Shown piece by piece: positions 1,995-55,576 of a stretch of DNA of 64,000 nt; positions within the stretch are counted from its first letter, which is position 1, and each line of letters opens with the position of its first letter. Made by a program: the position numbers and the translations under genes. A model generated the notes under the pieces. It had not been told where the DNA came from, did not search any database, and saw nothing but the letters and a program-made list of their open reading frames with translations. Origin of the DNA: Flintibacter sp. KGMB00164 (GTDB lineage Bacteria; Bacillota; Clostridia; Oscillospirales; Oscillospiraceae); NCBI RefSeq assembly GCF_008727735.1, contig NZ_CP044227.1:2429001-2493000 (forward strand). The letters are read 5' to 3'.

Positions 1995-4301
<2,307 letters not shown>

Positions 4302-46147: not shown

Positions 46148-48133
46148 TTACGCAGCCACAGAGCGATCCTTTTTGGCGCTCAGATACTGATATACACAGA
46201 TACCAGCCACCAGAACCAGACCGATCAGGTCGGTCACGGTGCCGGGGATCATCATGCACAGGCCGCCGACAGCCATAATAACACGGAACAGGGGGTTGAT
46301 CTTCTTGTAGAGGAAGCCGTTGAGGGCGGCAGCCACACCGAAGATGCCCAGCAGAGAGGTGACACAGATCTGGATGATCTGGACCACCATCATCACCGTA
46401 GAGGTACCCTTACTGAACTCGAAGAGCATCACAGGGCTGAACGCAAAGATGTAGGGGACAATAAAGGCCGCGATGGCAAGTCGTGTTGCGTTGAATGCGG
46501 TCTTCATGGGAGGAGCCTTGGCGATAGCGGAGCCGGCGTAGGCAGCCAGAGCCACGGGCGGGGTAATGTCGGCCACGATGCCGAAGTAGAACACGAAGAA
46601 GTGGGCAGCCACCTTGGGGATACCGATGGCAGGGCTCATCAGGATGGGGGCGCAGGTGGAAGCCATGATGCAGTAGTTAGCGGTGGTAGGCACGCCCATG
46701 CCCAGCACGATGCAGCACAGCATGGTGAGGAACAGAGCGATAATCGCCTGGCCGCCGGAGATCTTTACGATGGCGGTGATAAGCTTGGAAGCCAGACCGG
46801 TGGAGGTGATGCAGCCAGCCACGATACCAGCCATGGCGCAGGCCACAGCCACGGTGATGGTGCCCTTGCCGCCAGCCTCCAGGGCGTCGAAGATCTTGGC
46901 GGGAGTGATGCGGTCTTCCTTATTGACAATACCCACCAGAATGGTGATCACGATGGCCACCGCAGCGCAGAACTGCATGGTCTTCATGTTCAGGGAGACC
47001 ATGACCACCAGAACAACCAGGGGCAGCAGCAGGTAAACCTTGGGCAGCAGCTTGCGCATCTTGGGCAGCTGCTCTCTGGGAATACCCTTCAGGCCCAGCT
47101 TCTTGGCTTCCAGATGGACCGCAATGTAAATGCCGGTGAAGTAGAGGATAGCGGGCAGGATGGCCTTCAGTGCTACCTGAGCATAGGGGATACCCATGTA
47201 CTCAGCCATCAGGAAGGCAGCAGCGCCCATGATGGGGGGCATGATCTGACCGCCGGTGGAGGCAGCAGCCTCAACGGCGCCGGCAAACTGAGGCTTATAG
47301 CCCGTCTTCTTCATCATGGGAATGGTGACGGAGCCGGTGGTCACAGTGTTGCCCACGGAAGAGCCGGACACCATGCCGCACAGAGCGGAGGAGATAACGG
47401 CTACCTTGGCGGGGCCGCCGGAGGAAGAACCGGCCACGGAGTTTGCCAAATCAATAAAGAAGTTGGAAATTCCGGTGCGTTCCAGGAAGGCGCCGAAAAT
47501 AATAAACACAACAATGTAGGTGGCACACACCTTTACAGGAGTGCCCATCACGCCGCTGGTGGTATAGAACAGGTCATAGATGACCTTTCCGAACCGAACA
47601 TTGGCAAAGGTGTAAATCAGCAGAGCGCCCGCCACACACAAAATGGGCAACCCTACGCAGCGGCGGCACAGCTCCGCCAGTGCCAGTACACCGATGATGG
47701 CAATAGCCACCATGAAGGGCTCATTGGTTACCTTGGTTGCTTTCAGCAGGATATCCTTGGCGTTGGCTGCAAAGTAGAAGAAGGAGCCTGCGCCAAGCAC
47801 CATGATAACCAAATCATACCAAGGGATGTAGTTTACCTTCATATATCCCTTTTTCACAGGATAGTTCAGGTAACCGATGATAAGGATCAGACCCAGGAAC
47901 ATGGTCAGACGAACCTCCAGCAGGCCGCTGACAAACAAAGTCACGATGATACAGTACAGGGAAAAGAGCGCCATGATGGTCTTGACCACCAGCTTGGGCT
48001 TTCCTTCCCAAATACGGGTGTTGGACTCACGGTCATATTTTTTCATGACCTCGTCCACTGCGTCGGCAACGTTCACGTCCGCTTCCACGTCGGCTGCAGC
48101 TGCCTGTTTCTCCCTTTCTTTTTCGTAATCCAT
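46148..48133 (-). CDS. TRAP transporter fused permease (DctQ-DctM)
   Basis: 661 residues with about 18 hydrophobic segments. The first third is the small-subunit (DctQ-like, four to five helices) and the rest the large DctM unit with GSSVGNTVTTGSVTIPMMKK, AAASTGGQIMPPIMGAAAFL, CCIVLGMGVPTTANYCIMAS and YFGIVADITPPVALAAYAGS, the 4TM/12TM fused TAXI-type signature. It imports an organic acid or amino acid using a Na+ gradient, fed by the TAXI binding protein encoded upstream. Confidence 0.95.
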   Translation of the reverse strand: MDYEKEREKQAAAADVEADVNVADAVDEVMKKYDRESNTRIWEGKPKLVVKTIMALFSLYCIIVTLFVSGLLEVRLTMFLGLILIIGYLNYPVKKGYMKVNYIPWYDLVIMVLGAGSFFYFAANAKDILLKATKVTNEPFMVAIAIIGVLALAELCRRCVGLPILCVAGALLIYTFANVRFGKVIYDLFYTTSGVMGTPVKVCATYIVVFIIFGAFLERTGISNFFIDLANSVAGSSSGGPAKVAVISSALCGMVSGSSVGNTVTTGSVTIPMMKKTGYKPQFAGAVEAAASTGGQIMPPIMGAAAFLMAEYMGIPYAQVALKAILPAILYFTGIYIAVHLEAKKLGLKGIPREQLPKMRKLLPKVYLLLPLVVLVVMVSLNMKTMQFCAAVAIVITILVGIVNKEDRITPAKIFDALEAGGKGTITVAVACAMAGIVAGCITSTGLASKLITAIVKISGGQAIIALFLTMLCCIVLGMGVPTTANYCIMASTCAPILMSPAIGIPKVAAHFFVFYFGIVADITPPVALAAYAGSAIAKAPPMKTAFNATRLAIAAFIVPYIFAFSPVMLFEFSKGTSTVMMVVQIIQICVTSLLGIFGVAAALNGFLYKKINPLFRVIMAVGGLCMMIPGTVTDLIGLVLVAGICVYQYLSAKKDRSVAA

Positions 48134-48165
48134 AGAGCAAAATCCTTTCTGCGTTCTCCTTTACG

Positions 48166-48292
48166 GTTCCGCGGCTGCCTGCGGAACACACGCGCCCGCA
48201 CGCCCTTTAGGGAATGCGGGCGCTTCTGCTTCGCAAGTTGATCCCGCAATTCACAGCGGGCTGCGGCGGACTAATCCGCCGCAGCCCATCAA
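48166..48292. repeat. Hairpin cluster between TAXI binding-protein and permease genes
   Basis: In 180 bp between genes there are several inverted repeats: GTTCCGC/GCGGAAC (48166-48187), GCGCCCGCA/TGCGGGCGC (about 48192-48222, with inner CCCT/AGGG), CCCGC/GCGGG (48243-48260) and a 13-bp stem with CTAA loop (48258-48287). None has a T-run. Such structures stabilise the 3' end of the binding-protein message relative to the permease. Confidence 0.65.
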
Positions 48293-48315
48293 TTGACTGT
48301 CAGCAGGGATTGGAT

Positions 48316-49362
48316 TTACTTGGTGGGAACTTCGATGCCCTTCTCAGCGAAGTAGGCCGCAGCACCGGGATGATAGGGAACAGCGGTGTTGGAAGCGGCA
48401 AACTCCAGATCCAGCTCAGCGCCCTTACTGTGGGCAGCAGCCAGAGCCTCGGTGTTCTCGAAGATACCGAACAGGAAGTTGTACACATCGGCCTCAGACA
48501 CGTCGTCGCGGGCGATCACAGTAGCGACCACGGCCACGGTGGTGGCGTCGGCTTCCATCTCATAAGCATCAGCGGAGATGACGGCCTTCTCGTAGTAGGG
48601 AGAGCTCTCCTTCAGCTTGTCGATGTGCTCGTCGTCCAGGTTAACCAGATACACGTCCTTGGTGGTGGCCAGGGAGGTGATGGCGGTGGTGGGAGCGCCG
48701 GCAACCACGAAAGCGGCGTCGATCTTGCCGTCCTGCAGGGACTCAGCGCTGGTGCCGAAGTCCTCCAGAGTGGCCTGGATGTCGTTCTCGGTCATATCAT
48801 AAGCGGCCAGAACGTCAATGGCGTTATAGTACACGCCGGAACCGGGAGCGCCGATGGACACGCGCTTACCCTTCAGGTCGGCAACGGTCTTGATTTCGGG
48901 ATCCAGGGTAACAATCTGGACCTGCTCCATGTACAGGGAAGCGACGGTGGAGAAGTCAGTGACGGCAGCGCCATCGAAGTTACGGATGCCCTGGTAGGCA
49001 TAAGCCATAACGTCGGACTGCACGAAGCCCAGCTGGGCGTCGCCAATCTCCATGTTCTCAATGTTAGCCTGAGAACCGCCGGAAGAAATAACGGTCACCT
49101 GGGTGCTGGTAGCCTCGCCAACCTTACCGGCCAGAACGCCGCCAAAGCCGAAGTAGGTACCCTGATCACCGCCAGTGGTGAAGGTCAGGCTGGTGCCGCC
49201 CTCTTTGCCGCCGGTCACGGTCTCAGTGCCAGCATTGGAGCCGGAGCCAGAACCAGAGCCAGAGCCGGAACCAGAACTGCTACCGCCGGAAGTGGTGCAG
49301 GCCGTGAGGGACAGGCTGGCAGTAAGAGCCAGAGCCAGAACCAGAGCAAGTTTCTTTTTCAT
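48316..49362 (-). CDS. TAXI family TRAP solute-binding lipoprotein
   Basis: 348 residues starting 7 nt after GGAGGA. Lipoprotein signal with lipobox LTAC (Cys22), followed by a Gly/Ser linker. The mature protein has TFTTGGDQGTYFGFGGVLAG, GKRVSIGAPGSGVYYNAIDVL and AFVVAGAPTTAITSLA, the TAXI signatures. It probably binds glutamate or another acidic solute; the ligand is not determined from sequence. First gene of the transporter operon. Confidence 0.95.
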   Translation of the reverse strand: MKKKLALVLALALTASLSLTACTTSGGSSSGSGSGSGSGSGSNAGTETVTGGKEGGTSLTFTTGGDQGTYFGFGGVLAGKVGEATSTQVTVISSGGSQANIENMEIGDAQLGFVQSDVMAYAYQGIRNFDGAAVTDFSTVASLYMEQVQIVTLDPEIKTVADLKGKRVSIGAPGSGVYYNAIDVLAAYDMTENDIQATLEDFGTSAESLQDGKIDAAFVVAGAPTTAITSLATTKDVYLVNLDDEHIDKLKESSPYYEKAVISADAYEMEADATTVAVVATVIARDDVSEADVYNFLFGIFENTEALAAAHSKGAELDLEFAASNTAVPYHPGAAAYFAEKGIEVPTK

Positions 49363-49414
49363 GTAGATTCCTCCAATTCAATGATTGATTTGCAGGGACA
49401 ATACTTGCAGGCTT

Positions 49415-49521
49415 ATTATAGTATATTTGTTAAAAAAACGCAATAACGTTTTTTAACGTTTTGTGAACTACGTCAAAAATGTTATCATTTTTCCCTATTT
49501 CTGTATTTTTTTCATAACGTT
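49415..49521 (-). promoter_or_regulatory. TAXI operon promoter and AACGTT repeats
   Basis: On the minus strand TTGCGT (49438-49443), a 17-bp spacer and TATAAT (49415-49420). Upstream, the palindrome AACGTT flanked by T-runs recurs at 49445-49450, 49455-49460 and 49516-49521. The first two are 10 bp apart, one helical turn. They may bind a regulator. Confidence 0.6.
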
Positions 49522-49561
49522 TTTGAATGTTCTTTATGACATTTTAACATCGTCTTTTTGA

Positions 49562-50257
49562 CTAAGGACGCCATCCGTCCATGGCCTGTTCCAGCTTTGC
49601 CAGGGCCCGTTTTTCGATACGGGACACATAGGACCGGCTGATACCGCACCGGGCAGCCACCTCACGTTGCGTCCGTGGAGGCTGGTCATCCAGTCCGTAG
49701 CGCAGGGTGATGATGGCCCGCTCCCGGGGGTTGAGGCACTCCCCCACACACTGCCGCACTCGCCTGCACGCATCCCGGGTATCCAGGTCCTCCAGCATGT
49801 TGTCATCCACAGCAATGACATCCATCAAGGACAGGGAATTTCCGTCCCCGCCGTTTTCCATGGTGTCGGAAAGTGAGACCTCCCCCTGGAGTTTCTTCTG
49901 CGCCCGGAAGTGCATGAGGATCTCATTTTCAATACACCGGGAGGCATAGGTGGCCAGGCGCACGTTCTTATCTGCTTTAAAGGTGGAGATCCCTTTGATG
50001 AGGCCAATAGTGCCGATAGAGATCAGGTCGTCCTGGTCCCCGGTCTGAGCGTAATATTTTTTGACTATATGAGCCACCAGCCGCAGATTGTGCTCCACCA
50101 GAATATTCCGCGCCTCCAGGTCCCCCTGGGCGCACCGCTCCAAATATTTGCGCTCCTCCTCCGCTTTCAGCGGCCGGGGGAAGGAGCCTCCGCCTCCTGA
50201 CAGCCGCAGGGTAAAAAACAGGCCGTTGAGCACCAGATAGATCACTGGGGAAAGCAT
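49562..50257 (-). CDS. sigK: RNA polymerase sporulation sigma factor SigK (uninterrupted)
   Basis: 231 residues from ATG 50257, 7 nt after AGGAGGTG. A hydrophobic pro-sequence (MLSPVIYLVLNGLFFTLRL) precedes region 1.2 (EEERKYLERCAQGD). Region 2 has NLRLVAHIVKKYY and DLISIGTIGLIKGI, and region 4 TQREVAARCGISRSYVSRIEKRAL. This is the late mother-cell factor; in B. subtilis it is split by the skin element but here the frame is continuous. The pro-sequence implies activation by a SpoIVFB-type protease. Confidence 0.95.
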   Translation of the reverse strand: MLSPVIYLVLNGLFFTLRLSGGGGSFPRPLKAEEERKYLERCAQGDLEARNILVEHNLRLVAHIVKKYYAQTGDQDDLISIGTIGLIKGISTFKADKNVRLATYASRCIENEILMHFRAQKKLQGEVSLSDTMENGGDGNSLSLMDVIAVDDNMLEDLDTRDACRRVRQCVGECLNPRERAIITLRYGLDDQPPRTQREVAARCGISRSYVSRIEKRALAKLEQAMDGWRP

Positions 50258-50328
50258 AGACAGACACCTCCTGCCCCACTGTATTCTGCCCCTGCCCGTC
50301 CCTATGTCCATTTGTCCCAAAAAGCGGC

Positions 50329-50360
50329 AAAGGAGCCGCCCGAAAATCGGGCGGCTCCTT
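50329..50360 (-). terminator. Terminator of the bil-like operon
   Basis: A 12-bp stem (AGGAGCCGCCCG with CGGGCGGCTCCT, about 50331-50359) with an AAAAT loop, followed on the minus strand by TTTGCCGCTTTTT, 12 nt past the flavodoxin stop. Confidence 0.8.
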
Positions 50361-50370
50361 CTCCTTATAT

Positions 50371-50853
50371 TTATTTCGTCACTGCCTGCTTCAGCCCATC
50401 CAGATCCTGCTGGTCGGGATGGCTGAGGGCGCGGTCAAAGTTTTCCAGCATCATGGTACGCCGGGGGCTGTCCTCCATGGCTTCGTAGCGGTCCCGCACC
50501 ACCTGGGGCATCTTGCCCTGGCACATGTAGGTCCCAACCACCTGCACACCGGAGGCTAGATTCTCCTTCACCCGGCCCAGGATCTGCTCAAAGTAGGCGG
50601 GCGCACCGCCAAACCCGGCCGTGCCGAAGAGAAACACCTTCTGATTGGTCAGGCTTTGGAGAAAGTGGGAGGTCTGCTCGTCGCAGGTACCCTTGTCCGT
50701 CCAGAATCCTACGTAGATGGTATCGGCGCCGAGGGCCTCGGCGTGAGGCGCGCCGAAGTAGCTGCACTCCTCCTGGGGCAGCGCCTCCCGGATGGCCTGG
50801 GCCAGCAGGGCAGTGTTGCCGGTGCGGCTGCTGTAAACGATGGAATAGCTCAT
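50371..50853 (-). CDS. bilS: Flavodoxin family protein, BilS-like
   Basis: 160 residues. The FMN phosphate loop SSRTGNTALLAQAI and the later VFLFGTAGFGGAPAYFEQIL identify a short flavodoxin. The C-terminal RYEAMEDSPRRTMMLENFDRAL is typical of the clostridial flavodoxin group seen next to ene-reductases. Its start is fused to the bilR stop as ATGA. In the published bilirubin operon, BilS is a flavodoxin that helps electron supply to the reductase. Symbol assigned by position and family, so moderately confident. Confidence 0.8.
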   Translation of the reverse strand: MSYSIVYSSRTGNTALLAQAIREALPQEECSYFGAPHAEALGADTIYVGFWTDKGTCDEQTSHFLQSLTNQKVFLFGTAGFGGAPAYFEQILGRVKENLASGVQVVGTYMCQGKMPQVVRDRYEAMEDSPRRTMMLENFDRALSHPDQQDLDGLKQAVTK

Positions 50854-51962
50854 TTCGTTTCCTTCCTTTCATAAATGCAGTGGACGCCCTGGTGGGCCAT
50901 CATGCCTCCCAGGCACTTTTTGTTGCAGCGGACACAGCGGTGGATCTCCCCGGCCTGGCCGGAGCACACCTTGTTGGGCCACTCCGGGTCGGCAGTCAGC
51001 TGACGGCTCATGGCGGCACAGTCGATGCGGTCGCTTTTCAGCTGCTCCTCCACAAAGTCGGGATCGGTGAGCCCGCCCACACCGCAGATGGGCAGCTTGG
51101 TGAGCTTTCGCACCTGGTCACAGAACTTCAAGAAACAGCCCTCTGCCCCAAATTCCGGGTGATTCTTCGGGGGGATGGTGTCGCTGAGTTCTCCGTGGTT
51201 GGCCAGAGTCACATGGAAGCTGGTAACCCCCGCCTGCTCCAGCAGAGGGACGAAGATGGGCAGCTCCTCCTCCAGCACGCCGGCGTTTCCATAGTGTGGA
51301 TTCTCCTGACGCACGGCCAGTTTATAGTCAATGGGCACGTCGGGCAGACGGCGGCGGATGGCGGACACCGCCTCCACCGCAAAGCGGGCCCGGTTTTCGG
51401 GGCTGCCGCCGTAGCGATCGGTACGATGGTTAAAGACGGAGGAACTGAAGCTGCCGCACATCCGGTCCCCGTGGACCTGGACCATGTCAAATCCCGCCTG
51501 GATGGCCAGTTCGGCCGCTTTGCCAAAGGCGTCGGTGATCTCCTCCACTTTTTTCTCCGGCAGGCCGGTAATGTAAGGCCCTACCTGCTGGTTCAGCAGA
51601 GGCCGCAGCTCCTCCATAGAGATGCGCTTGGTGAGCACACCGGGGATGTATTTGATCATCCCCTTCAGGTTGGAGTCGGACTGGTGGAGCTGGGCACACA
51701 GCTTACACCCATAGGGGTGGACGGCATCTGCCAGACTCTTGTAAAACTCCATACCCTTCTTGGTGTACAGAGATGGTCCAAAGCCGTGGGGCAGTACCGG
51801 AACATCGCCGATGATGATCATAGCGCAGCCTCCGGCGGCAATCTTCTTCATCCGCTCCAGCAGTTCCTCCTGGGGGAGTCCCAAGCTGGTGGGCGCAAAG
51901 AGGATACGGTTCTTTAAGGTAAGCCCGCCGTAATTCAGGGGGCTGTTGATGGTCTCATACAT
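50850..51962 (-). CDS. bilR: Bilirubin reductase candidate (old yellow enzyme family)
   Basis: 370 residues: an OYE/2,4-dienoyl-CoA reductase TIM barrel without the C-terminal NAD domain. The FMN motif RILFAPTSLGLP lies at 20-31. At 161-167 it has VQVHGDR, ending in Asp166-Arg167 where ordinary OYEs have His-Gly-x-His/Tyr; Asp166 and Arg167 are, as I recall, the active-site pair of BilR. HRTDRYGGSPENRARF follows, and near the end C-x2-C-x3-C (CVRCNKKC) plus a later Cys can hold a 4Fe-4S cluster. It should reduce bilirubin bridge bonds to urobilinogen. Overlaps the MarR gene by 28 bp. Confidence 0.85.
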   Translation of the reverse strand: MYETINSPLNYGGLTLKNRILFAPTSLGLPQEELLERMKKIAAGGCAMIIIGDVPVLPHGFGPSLYTKKGMEFYKSLADAVHPYGCKLCAQLHQSDSNLKGMIKYIPGVLTKRISMEELRPLLNQQVGPYITGLPEKKVEEITDAFGKAAELAIQAGFDMVQVHGDRMCGSFSSSVFNHRTDRYGGSPENRARFAVEAVSAIRRRLPDVPIDYKLAVRQENPHYGNAGVLEEELPIFVPLLEQAGVTSFHVTLANHGELSDTIPPKNHPEFGAEGCFLKFCDQVRKLTKLPICGVGGLTDPDFVEEQLKSDRIDCAAMSRQLTADPEWPNKVCSGQAGEIHRCVRCNKKCLGGMMAHQGVHCIYERKETK

Positions 51963-52372
51963 GTGGAATTCGCTTCTTTCTTGGTGGCTTTTGCCAAGAG
52001 GGCAAAGAGCTGCTCCCGCTCGTTCTCATCCAGGGCGGCCAGTGCCTGCTGGTCCCAGTCGAAAAACACCTGGTGGCTCACCTGAAAGGCCTCTTGCCCC
52101 TTGGGGCTCAGGTCCAGGTGGTAGGCCCGGCCCGACTTCTCCCGGGTGAGGAACCCCTCCTCCACCAGCTTGGTCACGGTGCGCTGGGAGTACCCCCAGT
52201 CCAGCCCAAGGGCGGCGGTGAGCTCAGCCTGGGTGCAGCCCGGGTGCTTGCCCACATAGATCACCGGAAACAGGGAGCCAAAATTGAGCCCCAGCTTCTG
52301 CAGGCGCTGGGTGGTGTAGGCGGTAAAGCCGCGGTGAAAGACGGTGGCGTAGTAGGCCAGAGTCTGGAACAT
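51935..52372 (-). CDS. bilQ: MarR family regulator (BilQ-like)
   Basis: 145 residues from ATG 52372; the ribosome site AAGGAG is 11 nt upstream. The winged helix includes TQAELTAALGLDWGYSQRTV and the wing LTREKSGRAYHLDLSPKG, with dimerisation helices at both ends (FQTLAYYATVFHRGF, LDENEREQLFALLAKAT). First gene of the operon. It most likely binds the two palindromes over its own promoter and is released by a ligand, possibly a bile pigment. The symbol rests on synteny. Confidence 0.82.
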   Translation of the reverse strand: MFQTLAYYATVFHRGFTAYTTQRLQKLGLNFGSLFPVIYVGKHPGCTQAELTAALGLDWGYSQRTVTKLVEEGFLTREKSGRAYHLDLSPKGQEAFQVSHQVFFDWDQQALAALDENEREQLFALLAKATKKEANSTCMRPSTAP

Positions 52373-52391
52373 GAAACGGTCAACTCCTTTT

Positions 52392-52433
52392 CTTGACTTA
52401 GTCAAGTATATCATGCAACTTGACAAAGTCAAG
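52392..52433 (-). promoter_or_regulatory. Operon promoter covered by two perfect 15-bp palindromes
   Basis: On the minus strand TTGACT (52427-52432), a 16-bp spacer and TATACT (52405-52410) precede the MarR gene. Two 15-bp palindromes of form CTTGACT-N-AGTCAAG stand at 52392-52406 and 52419-52433, 27 bp apart centre to centre. One covers the -35 and the other the -10/start. This is a textbook MarR double operator. Confidence 0.88.
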
Positions 52434-52446
52434 TGTAATTCGAAAA

Positions 52447-52477
52447 TTTTTGGAGCCGCAGCCAGCGGCTCCAAAAA
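52447..52477 (-). terminator. Terminator after uridine phosphorylase
   Basis: TTTTTGGAGCCGC pairs with GCGGCTCCAAAAA around AGCCA; on the minus strand the exit is AAATTTTC, so the T-run is within the stem's 3' arm. It separates the phosphorylase transcript from the bil-like promoter. Confidence 0.75.
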
Positions 52478-52478
52478 A

Positions 52479-53252
52479 TCACAGCTTCTTATCTTCCTGG
52501 ATCAGCAGCTTCAGGGCCTCGATTCCCACCTGGATGGCGGCGGAAGTATCGTGGGACTCCTTCTGGTCCAACCCATCCTTCTCCCGCTCCTGGTTCCAGA
52601 TCACATGGAATACCGAGCCGCACCGCACCCCTCGCGCGGCAGCCACGGCAAACAGGGCGGCCGACTCCATCTCGCTGGCCAGCACCCCAAGGCGCTTCCA
52701 GGCCTCCCACTTCTGCTCCAGTTCGTAACTGACCGGCATACGGGCAGGAGAATGCTGTCCATAAAAGGAGTCCTTACACTGGACCACGCCCGCGTGCCAG
52801 GGTTTTTGCAGGTTTTGGGCCGCCTTTACCAGGGCCTGGGTCACGGTAAAGTCAGGAACGGCGGGCCACTCCATAGGGGCATACTCCCGGCTGGTACCCT
52901 CCATGCGCACCGCACCGGTGGCCACCACCACGTCATCGCTCTGGACCTCCAGCTTGATGCCGCCGCAGGTACCCACCCGTACAAAGGTGTGGCAGCCCAG
53001 GTTGCACAGCTCCTCCATGGCAATGGCGGCGGAGGGTCCGCCGATTCCGGTGGACACCACGCTCACCTTCTCCCCCAGGAGGGTTCCGGTATAAGTGGTG
53101 TACTCCCGGTTGGTCTGAACATGGACTGGGTCATCAAAGTGCCGGGCAATGGCTTCACACCGCCCCGGGTCGCCGGGGAGGATGCAGTATTTACCCACCT
53201 GTCCGGGGGCGCACTGGATGTGAAATTGAAGTTCACGGCTTTGTTCATCCAT
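52479..53252 (-). CDS. Uridine phosphorylase family nucleoside phosphorylase
   Basis: 257 residues from ATG 53252, 7 nt after AGGAGG. The phosphate loop [43 protein letters not shown] and [12 protein letters not shown] match the NP-I uridine phosphorylase branch. It splits uridine (or related nucleosides) to base plus ribose-1-phosphate for salvage. Monocistronic, divergent from the thrS T-box. Confidence 0.92.
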
Positions 53253-53321
53253 AGAAAAACCTCCTGTGGCGTTTTTGTCCATTATACCCTCTGTTTTCCT
53301 CCTATACAAGTTACTTTCCTC

Positions 53322-53350
53322 TTGACAGCACCTGATATTGGTGATATATT
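53322..53350 (+). promoter_or_regulatory. thrS promoter
   Basis: TTGACA (53322-53327), a 17-bp spacer and TATATT (53345-53350). Transcription would start near 53357, giving a roughly 410-nt leader with a T-box. Confidence 0.78.
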
Positions 53351-53356
53351 TTCTGC

Positions 53357-53722
53357 GTAAAATTGGCACAGACGGAGACCAAGCCGCCCTTGCCCCGCCC
53401 AGAGAGGAACACAGCTTGCTGAAAGTGTTCTGCGCAGGCCGGCGGCCGCAACCACTCCTGAGCCGCCCGGGAAACAACCGGGACGGGTCCTCCCGTTACA
53501 GAGGTCACAAGCGGTTAGATGTCACGCTGCGTCCCTTCCGCAATGGCCAACTGCTCCACACTTCGCCGAACATGCCGCCGGGCTGCGCCCGTCCTGTTTT
53601 TCGGTCTGCGTGTGTCGCTGTTGTCCTGCTCCCAGGGACTCCGCGCTTCTAACAAGCAGGGTGGAACCGTGGAGCTTTTTTCGCTTCACCCCTGACACAA
53701 CGCAGGGGTGAGGCGTTTTTTA
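53357..53722 (+). promoter_or_regulatory. T-box riboswitch controlling thrS
   Basis: The T-box sequence AGGGTGGAACCGTGG is at 53658-53672, followed by a terminator with arms GCTTCACCCCTG and CAGGGGTGAGGC (about 53683-53715) and a T-run. The 5' half shows Stem I hallmarks: AGAGAGGAACACAGCTTGCT with GAAAGTGTTC, and ACTCCTGAG after the specifier. The triplet ACC at 53451-53453 precedes that motif and is a plausible threonine specifier. Uncharged tRNA-Thr binding would favour the antiterminator. Confidence 0.92.
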
Positions 53723-53770
53723 TGTCCTCCGCCCCCGAAAACCAATTAAATTTGCAAGGAGGAACACACC

Positions 53771-55576
53771 ATGTCTGAAGAAGTCAAGAACGAATTTACC
53801 TTTGAAAATCCCGAGTACCGCAAGACCTATTGGCACACCTGCTCCCACGTGCTGGCTCAGGCCATGAAGCGGCTGCACCCCGAGGTGAAGCTGGCCATCG
53901 GCCCCAGCATTGAGAACGGGTTCTACTATGACTTTGACACCCCCCGCCCCTTCACCCCCGAGGATCTGGCCGCCCTGGAGGCTGAGATGCGCAAGATCTG
54001 CAAGGAGAAGCTGAAGCTGGAGCGCTTTGAGCTGCCCCGTGAGGAGGCCATCAAGTTCATGGAGGAGAAGGAGGAGCCCTACAAGGTGGAGCTCATCCAG
54101 GACCTGCCTGAGGACGCCCACATCTCCTTCTACAAGCAGGGCGACTTCACCGACCTGTGCGCCGGTCCCCACCTGGACTCCACCGGCCGCATCAAGGGCA
54201 ACGCCATCAAGCTCACCAGCGCTACCGGCGCCTACTGGCGGGGCGATTCCAACCGCAAGATGCTCCAGCGCATCTACGGCGTGGCCTTCCCCAAGAAGGA
54301 CGAGCTGGACGCATACCTGGCCAAGCAGGCCGAGGCTCTCAAGCGTGACCACAACAAGCTGGGCCGTGAGCTGGAGTACTTTACCACCGTGGACGTGATC
54401 GGTCAGGGCCTGCCCGTGCTGCTGCCCAAGGGCGCCCGGGTGGTCCAGCTGCTCCAGCGCTGGATCGAGGACACCGAGCAGAAGCGCGGCTACCTGCTGA
54501 CCAAGACCCCCCTGATGGCCAAGCGGGACCTGTACAAGATCTCCGGCCACTGGGATCACTATCTGGACGGCATGTTCATCCTGGGCGATCCCCACGATGA
54601 GACCAAGGAGTGCTTTGCCCTGCGTCCCATGACCTGCCCCTTCCAGTATCAGGTCTATCTCAACCGCCAGCGCTCCTACCGTGAGCTGCCCATGCGTCTG
54701 GGCGAGACCTCTACCCTGTTCCGCAATGAGGACTCCGGCGAGATGCACGGCTTGATCCGTGTGCGCCAGTTCACCATCTCTGAGGGCCACCTGATCCTCC
54801 GCCCCGACCAGCTGGAGGAGGAGTTCAAGGGCTGCCTGGATCTGGCCAAGTACTGCCTGGGCACCCTGGGCCTGCTGGACAAGTGCACCTTCCGTTTCTC
54901 CCAGTGGGATCCCGCCAACCCCAACAACAAGTATGAGGGTACCGCCGAGCAGTGGGAGGAGGCCCAGCGGGTCATGGCTCAGATCCTGAAAGACCTGGAC
55001 GTGGACTACACCGTGGGCATCGACGAGGCCGCCTTCTACGGTCCCAAGCTGGACATCCAGTACAAGAACGTCTACGGCAAGGAGGACACCCTGGTCACCA
55101 TCCAGATCGACATGCTCCTGGCTGAGAAGTTCGGCATGTACTATATCGACGAGAACGGCGAGAAGAAGCTGCCCTATATCATCCACCGCACCTCCATGGG
55201 CTGCTACGAGCGCACCCTGGCCTACCTCATCGAGGAGTTCGCCGGCGCTCTGCCCGTGTGGATGGCTCCCGAGCAGGTCCGCTTCCTGCCCGTCACCGAC
55301 CGTGCCTGCGACTACTGCGCCGACCTGGCCCGCCAGCTCTCCGACCTGGGCTACCGGGTGGATGTGGACTACCGCAACGAGAAGATCGGCAAGAAGATCC
55401 GCGAGGCCACCATGGAGAAGATCCCCTACATGATCGTGGTGGGCGACCGGGACATGGAGAACAACACCGTGTCCGTGCGTCTGCGCACTGGCGAGGATCT
55501 GGGCGCCATGCCTATGGCCGACTTTATCGCCAAGCTCAAGGCTGTGGTGGATTCCAAGTCCCTGGAGCTGAACTAA
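53771..55576 (+). CDS. thrS: Threonine--tRNA ligase without TGS domain
   Basis: 601 residues, against about 640 in E. coli. The N-terminal TGS domain is missing: the editing-domain motif HTCSHVLAQAM occurs at residue 22 rather than near 73. Editing domain Cys/His (YYDFD, DLCAGPHLDSTG), class II motif 2 (MRLGETSTLFRNEDSG, GLIRVRQFT), zinc-binding Cys in RPMTCPFQ and His residues, and motif 3 (IIHRTSMGCYERTLAYLIE) are present. The C-terminal anticodon domain is intact (PVTDRACDYCADLARQL). Expression is under the T-box. Confidence 0.95.
   Translation: MSEEVKNEFTFENPEYRKTYWHTCSHVLAQAMKRLHPEVKLAIGPSIENGFYYDFDTPRPFTPEDLAALEAEMRKICKEKLKLERFELPREEAIKFMEEKEEPYKVELIQDLPEDAHISFYKQGDFTDLCAGPHLDSTGRIKGNAIKLTSATGAYWRGDSNRKMLQRIYGVAFPKKDELDAYLAKQAEALKRDHNKLGRELEYFTTVDVIGQGLPVLLPKGARVVQLLQRWIEDTEQKRGYLLTKTPLMAKRDLYKISGHWDHYLDGMFILGDPHDETKECFALRPMTCPFQYQVYLNRQRSYRELPMRLGETSTLFRNEDSGEMHGLIRVRQFTISEGHLILRPDQLEEEFKGCLDLAKYCLGTLGLLDKCTFRFSQWDPANPNNKYEGTAEQWEEAQRVMAQILKDLDVDYTVGIDEAAFYGPKLDIQYKNVYGKEDTLVTIQIDMLLAEKFGMYYIDENGEKKLPYIIHRTSMGCYERTLAYLIEEFAGALPVWMAPEQVRFLPVTDRACDYCADLARQLSDLGYRVDVDYRNEKIGKKIREATMEKIPYMIVVGDRDMENNTVSVRLRTGEDLGAMPMADFIAKLKAVVDSKSLELN

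Follow-up and report, generated by a model that had tools for sequence, protein, structure and literature searches.

What does the three-gene cluster beside sigK in Flintibacter sp. KGMB00164 produce, and how is it controlled? The window, that is the whole stretch of 64,000 nucleotides analyzed here (NZ_CP044227.1, positions 2,429,001 to 2,493,000), stems from a genome that consists of a single contig of 2.92 Mb. A sequence-only reading had described the cluster as a complete bilirubin-reduction locus, bilQ-bilR-bilS, with urobilinogen as the presumed product. The locus and its surroundings comprise the following features:

49562..50320, minus strand: sigK, a neighbour outside the bil system (NCBIfam PRK05803, 284.4 bits, cut-off 252)
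50329..50361, minus strand: intrinsic-terminator-like stem directly 3' of bilS (15-pair stem, then a T-rich tail)
50371..50853, minus strand: bilS, flavodoxin-like protein, 160 aa (NCBIfam NF045594, 228.7 bits, cut-off 155; Pfam Flavodoxin_3)
50850..51962, minus strand: bilR, short-form bilirubin reductase, 370 aa (NCBIfam NF045592, 567.6 bits, cut-off 425; motifs, trees and 1PS9 alignment)
51935..52372, minus strand: bilQ, MarR-family regulator, 145 aa (NCBIfam NF045593, 156.6 bits, cut-off 125; Pfam MarR_2, 32.6 bits against 27, and MarR, 25 against 24.6, both barely above cut-off)
52405..52432, minus strand: promoter-like site TTGACT-16-TATACT ahead of bilQ (10/12 matches in the promoter scan)
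52447..52477, strand unassigned: inverted repeat with T/A runs and 13-nt perfect arms, between the uridine phosphorylase gene and bilQ
52479..53477, minus strand: uridine phosphorylase, a neighbour outside the bil system (NCBIfam TIGR01718, 321.3 bits, cut-off 280.3)

Along the minus strand the uridine phosphorylase gene lies upstream, followed by bilQ-bilR-bilS and, downstream, by sigK. Recomputation from the window confirmed that the bil genes overlap in the order originally described, bilQ and bilR by 28 bp and bilR and bilS by 4 bp (ATGA). The single promoter and terminator of the sequence-only reading, whose locus end at 52433 includes the promoter, were recovered as well; a promoter scan of 49400-53800 returned four further promoter-like sites. 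The inverted repeat at 52447..52477 may represent the terminator of the uridine phosphorylase gene, the true start of which is probably located further inside the open reading frame; the family match begins at residue 85. The sigK neighbourhood also held: the gene resides 3' of bilS on the same strand, passes PRK05803 and stays below the cut-off of TIGR02846 (281.1 bits, cut-off 298.65). To look for an insertion of the operon at sigK, 61 genomes were surveyed, 46 of them with a sigK match. Thirty sigK loci were read, and the adjacency of bilS and sigK proved common to some relatives of the same genus (five of the 30, window included); we see no functional meaning in it. No udp match occurred in the flanks of these 30 loci, which at 1500 bases were too short to span the bil genes. 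In the same-genus genomes G011, G037, G045 and G084 sigK matched as two separate parts, as in skin-type elements, at distances of about 140 kb (G011), 15 kb (G037) and 57 kb (G084) or on two contigs (G045); sigK of the window is whole. Downstream of sigK, two minus-strand genes (46148-49362) were read by eye as a putative TAXI-type TRAP transporter consisting of a membrane and a solute-binding protein.

The identification as bilQ, bilR and bilS is supported by curated models, by the HGDR motif and by trees. All three proteins of the window exceed the cut-offs of the NCBIfam equivalogs of these names, and the same models are matched above cut-offs by the loci of C. symbiosum ATCC 14940 and C. 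difficile CD160, strains other than those in PMC10769871. Related loci were collected from a scan of named genomes; among the best 80 of 93 confirmed loci, bilQ is immediately upstream of bilR in 65 and bilS immediately downstream in 60. The full Q-R-S order is present in 54 of these 80 and, because all three proteins of the window in addition pass curated equivalog cut-offs, the arrangement is non-random. A sample of 29 BilQ sequences, window included, passes E 1e-36 on the BilQ model throughout. The sequence-only reading had numbered the BilR residues of the HGDR motif correctly (residues 164-167, with Asp166 and Arg167), and its use of this motif as a BilR mark agrees with PMC10769871, which defines BilR and tested D166 and R167. 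Of 79 BilR rows aligned from the best 80 of 93 loci, two loci with short frames being left out, 76 carry HGDR, two LGDR and one HGDH.

FadH, the 2,4-dienoyl-CoA reductase of PDB entry 1PS9, shares with BilR of the window the old-yellow-enzyme (OYE) domain, as judged by sequence, and a C-x2-C-x3-C-x11-C cysteine pattern. Cysteines 343, 346, 350 and 362 of BilR align with the cysteine motif of 1PS9, the residues of which we take to be 4Fe-4S ligands, and they are kept in 78/79 rows from the best 80 of 93 loci (L049 is gapped at that place). On the other hand, BilR carries HGDR where FadH has its active-site stretch, and the alignment stops at residue 355 of the 671 residues of 1PS9, so that the NADPH domain is missing; the FAD and NADPH domains that follow the barrel in FadH-type enzymes are absent from the 370-aa protein.

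In trees the reductase groups with BilR from C. symbiosum and C. difficile and not with non-BilR OYE proteins. When 79 short BilR rows were set against four long BilR and four other OYE rows, the short rows fell on one side of a branch with a starred SH-aLRT value of 99 in a quick search without bootstrap that gave a long outgroup branch warning and in which L106 and L114 are broken frames translated through. The five longest-branched of nine OYE rows (L003, L015, L017, L018, L020) are omitted from this tree, and L080 and L105 (frames below 330 aa) from all trees; its long BilR sequences are four chosen rows from a search of 394 genomes of the order, the short BilR rows of which are not included. 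An earlier tree with nine other OYE rows concurs (starred 100), again with a long outgroup branch warning. A class-level search of 196 genomes, in which few candidates were scored per genome, yielded no long BilR above cut-off. BilR of the window is 66% identical to that of C. symbiosum and 48-49% identical to that of C. difficile. Among 80 relatives (own genome included) BilR exceeds the cut-off in ten, all within the 49 of this genus, and at E 1e-60 plasmids provided a single distant match with 36% identity.

The reductase might nevertheless be a bilR-like OYE protein with another natural substrate, for example a different bilin or a dietary enone, and reduce bilirubin only as a side reaction, if at all. 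Two related loci (L103, and L107 from Flintibacter muris; bilR at 4001) encode proteins that have LGDR in place of HGDR; neither bilQ nor bilS nor the operator box introduced below was found there. These BilR-like proteins may have a different substrate and be misnamed. The copy in G021, taken as the counterpart of L107, passes the BilR cut-off with 485.3 bits, and the family call alone consequently does not fix function. We consider a different substrate very unlikely for the protein studied here, because HGDR is intact, the protein falls into the short-BilR group, and neighbours and models are those of the C. symbiosum and C. difficile operons. In terms of sequence, the locus is a further member of the known bilQRS kind. 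It shares genes, gene order, HGDR motif and NCBIfam equivalogs with the operons of C. symbiosum and C. difficile (PMC10769871) and differs from them in belonging to another genus and in its stronger predicted boxes.

The expected reaction product requires a correction of the original proposal. According to a 2026 preprint (PMC13252198), BilR acts on biliverdin as well as bilirubin and reduces the C5 and C15 methine bridges only; the vinyl groups require a second enzyme, BilV, which carries an AHAH motif, and BilR without BilV yields divinyl-urobilinogen instead of urobilinogen. The locus resembles the BilR-short subtype without bilV in that preprint: BilR has 370 aa and no NAD(P)H domain, and no BilV-like gene was found. 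A PF00724 search, in which all six candidates were scored, revealed two OYE genes in the genome, bilR and a gene for a 406-aa protein with HNAY, and hence no BilV-type protein with AHAH within the OYE family, to which this search, run without a BilV sequence as positive control, was limited; a vinyl reductase of another family would escape it. Since BilV was not found in the genome, the vinyl groups would remain and divinyl-urobilinogen is the expected end product in this organism. Accordingly, the description of the locus as complete stands for bilQ, bilR and bilS and does not extend to BilV, for which the OYE search gave no candidate, and the suggestion that the organism makes urobilinogen has to be replaced by divinyl-urobilinogen on the basis of PMC13252198. 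The flavodoxin probably takes part in electron transfer, as stated in PMC10769871, and BilS may well be the electron donor to BilR, a reductase that lacks an NAD(P)H domain. Enzyme activity in this organism, cofactors and electron route are what we infer from these relationships. Deconjugation of bilirubin glucuronide by a beta-glucuronidase was also considered and found no support: the one PF02836 protein detected in the genome reaches 125.9 bits on the NCBI beta-glucuronidase model, the cut-off of which is 544.

Control of the operon appears to reside in two tandem 15-bp palindromes, CTTGAC-N3-GTCAAG, which lie 27 bp apart and span the bilQ promoter:

52419..52433, minus strand: predicted BilQ operator, upstream box CTTGACTTTGTCAAG, a palindrome kept in relatives that contains the -35 hexamer
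52392..52406, minus strand: predicted BilQ operator, downstream box CTTGACTAAGTCAAG, likewise a palindrome kept in relatives

The downstream box begins with the two bases that end the -10 sequence TATACT and should cover the transcription start. In the window alone the motif is not significant when up to two mismatches are allowed (five found; 9/100 shuffles reach five). In the whole 2.92-Mb genome, the exact sequence occurs twice, both times in the bilQ promoter, and the reversed control pattern once. A wider BilQ regulon was sought and rejected: boxes with one mismatch add eight genomic sites as compared to 25 for the reversed control and were taken as chance. In all eight the central triplet includes G or C. 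The BilQ regulon probably consists of bilQ and bilR/bilS alone.

Single boxes are unspecific. At least one exact box is present in 25/80 relatives, 17 of which have no BilR above cut-off, and the reversed control pattern occurs in 23/80; the specific element is the box pair. Eight of the ten BilR-bearing relatives (own genome included) have an exact box before the bil locus, judged by contig and position, the exceptions being G021 and G035. When 67 bilQ promoters were inspected (the window and 66 loci), 62 contained a box with at least 10 of 12 matches within 110 bp, where shuffles lead to an expectation of 0.25. In 70 of the best 80 of 93 loci, the first bil gene has a box of this quality no more than 150 bp away, as opposed to 15 of 1544 control windows, and 62 loci have paired boxes (10 and 9 matches or better) with a spacing of 28 (54 loci), 27 (seven) or 29 (one). 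Both boxes match 12/12 in the window; the values are 10 and 9/12 for C. symbiosum and 9 and 9/12 for C. difficile. Loci without a box are L085, L090, L094, L098, L103, L107, L111, L112, L113 and L114. BilQ occurs without a box of at least 10 matches in L085 and L094, where the adjacent regulators are BilQ according to the model (159 and 145.3 bits), and in two C. difficile loci (9/12). In L097 boxes are present and no BilQ exceeds the cut-off.

MarR-type autorepressors with palindromes in their promoters are a known class. BilQ resembles them as a winged-helix regulator whose gene opens the operon and whose promoter is overlaid by palindromes, and is set apart by the two-box arrangement which, in the genome of the window, was found at its own promoter only. 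Some MarR proteins activate transcription, and BilQ could be an activator or both repress and activate. We regard this as unlikely given the position of the boxes. In the window, one contains the -35 hexamer. The other coincides in part with a TATACT-like -10 sequence, which the second box forms in 61 of the 62 paired loci from the best 80 of 93. With boxes over -35 and -10, binding of BilQ should block polymerase. Autorepression, in which BilQ dimers on both boxes would cover -35 and -10, is the simplest model.

Fifteen of the best 80 of 93 loci have bilR without adjoining bilQ, and nine of these 15 keep the box, eight before bilR (L043, L048, L050, L071, L096, L097, L099, L108) and one before bilS-bilR (L092). 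BilQ above cut-off is encoded elsewhere in the genome for 8/9 of the boxed loci (not L097) versus 0/6 of the unboxed loci (Fisher test, 0.0014). All eight separated bilQ genes have a box with 11 or 12 of 12 matches near their start, which in six cases is paired at a spacing of 28 bp. None of the best MarR genes other than bilQ from the remaining seven genomes has a box with at least 10 matches (0/7). Overall, box and BilQ are concordant in 74/79 rows from the best 80 of 93 loci. Strict phylogenetic pairing provided at most five independent pairs, two on starred branches, with a sign test p of 1; this test cannot reach significance because there are too few independent events.

Furthermore, the double core, TTGAC-N3-GTCAA twice at a distance of 14-15 without mismatch, was searched in 394 genomes of the order. 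It is present in six and its reversed control in none, and all six pairs are situated directly upstream of bilQ (five) or bilR (one). Behind the pair, bilQ is followed by bilR in the window, G429 and G649, and bilR itself follows in G561. BilR was found at E 1e-110 in 16/394 genomes (14 above cut-off) and in five of the six genomes with an exact pair (Fisher test, 3e-7). The fifth pair, in G459 (L219:1500-2570), precedes bilQ-bilS, and a long BilR with HGDR is encoded on another contig; BilS thus remains under the box although the BilR of this genome is of the long form. The sixth, in G608 (L217:1563-1991), precedes a lone bilQ in a genome without BilR at E 1e-110. BilQ and BilS of G459 and BilQ of G608 exceed the NCBI cut-offs.

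The double palindrome could instead be the site of another regulator, such as a MarR protein of the FabT type. Related TTGA/TCAA palindromes are common sites of MarR proteins, and BilQ of C. symbiosum does score on the NCBI FabT model, with 45.9 bits against a cut-off of 200. This reading is highly improbable in view of the restriction of the exact box to the bil promoter in the genome of the window, the tracking of the box with BilQ in trans (8/9 versus 0/6) and the position of all six exact pairs in front of bilQ or bilR. We predict that the double palindrome is the operator of BilQ. In the literature covered, bilQ appears alongside bilR in a single paper, PMC10769871. Its accessible text describes no operator for BilQ and uses this term solely for the lac segment of a construct; that of PMC13252198 mentions no operator, palindrome, regulator or MarR protein. 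Literal spellings of the box gave no match in the literature covered, which comprised sources other than subscription papers and supplements. The conserved candidate operator and the small proposed regulon are the new part; the operon type is already known.

With considerable confidence we propose a short-type bilQRS operon that leads to divinyl-urobilinogen and is subject to autorepression by BilQ via the two CTTGAC-N3-GTCAAG palindromes and to release by pigment. Most likely, BilQ represses its own operon by binding both tandem 15-bp boxes, and a bile pigment or a product thereof most likely releases it. Binding, repression and ligand are inferred parts of this model. Cys46 of BilQ was discarded as a thiol switch or covalent pigment site. 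The residue is invariant in 29 aligned BilQ proteins, but four bilQ genes of Faecalibacterium encode Ala here (in five rows, of which L048 and L188 represent one gene) and L191 has Thr, and Cys is also present at this place in 7/18 other MarR proteins.

As an operon, the locus extends the list of known bilirubin reducers by one genome, and a BilR call alone does not imply full conversion to urobilinogen. The added value lies in a testable proposal for a switch of bilirubin reduction that names both operator and repressor and predicts a very small regulon. The proposed operator makes the ligand sensed by BilQ directly testable in E. coli, and the box can serve as a marker for BilQ-controlled genes, including those of split operons and stand-alone bilQ. 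On balance, the sequence comparisons lead us to lean towards a more general view, in which BilQ would be a dedicated bile-pigment-responsive repressor in gut Bacillota that acts through tandem CTTGAC-N3-GTCAAG spaced 27-28 bp and has bilQ, bilRS and, in trans, separated bilR and bilS genes under its control. If this is true, BilQ and its tandem operator may be usable as a ready-made biosensor for bilirubin or biliverdin.
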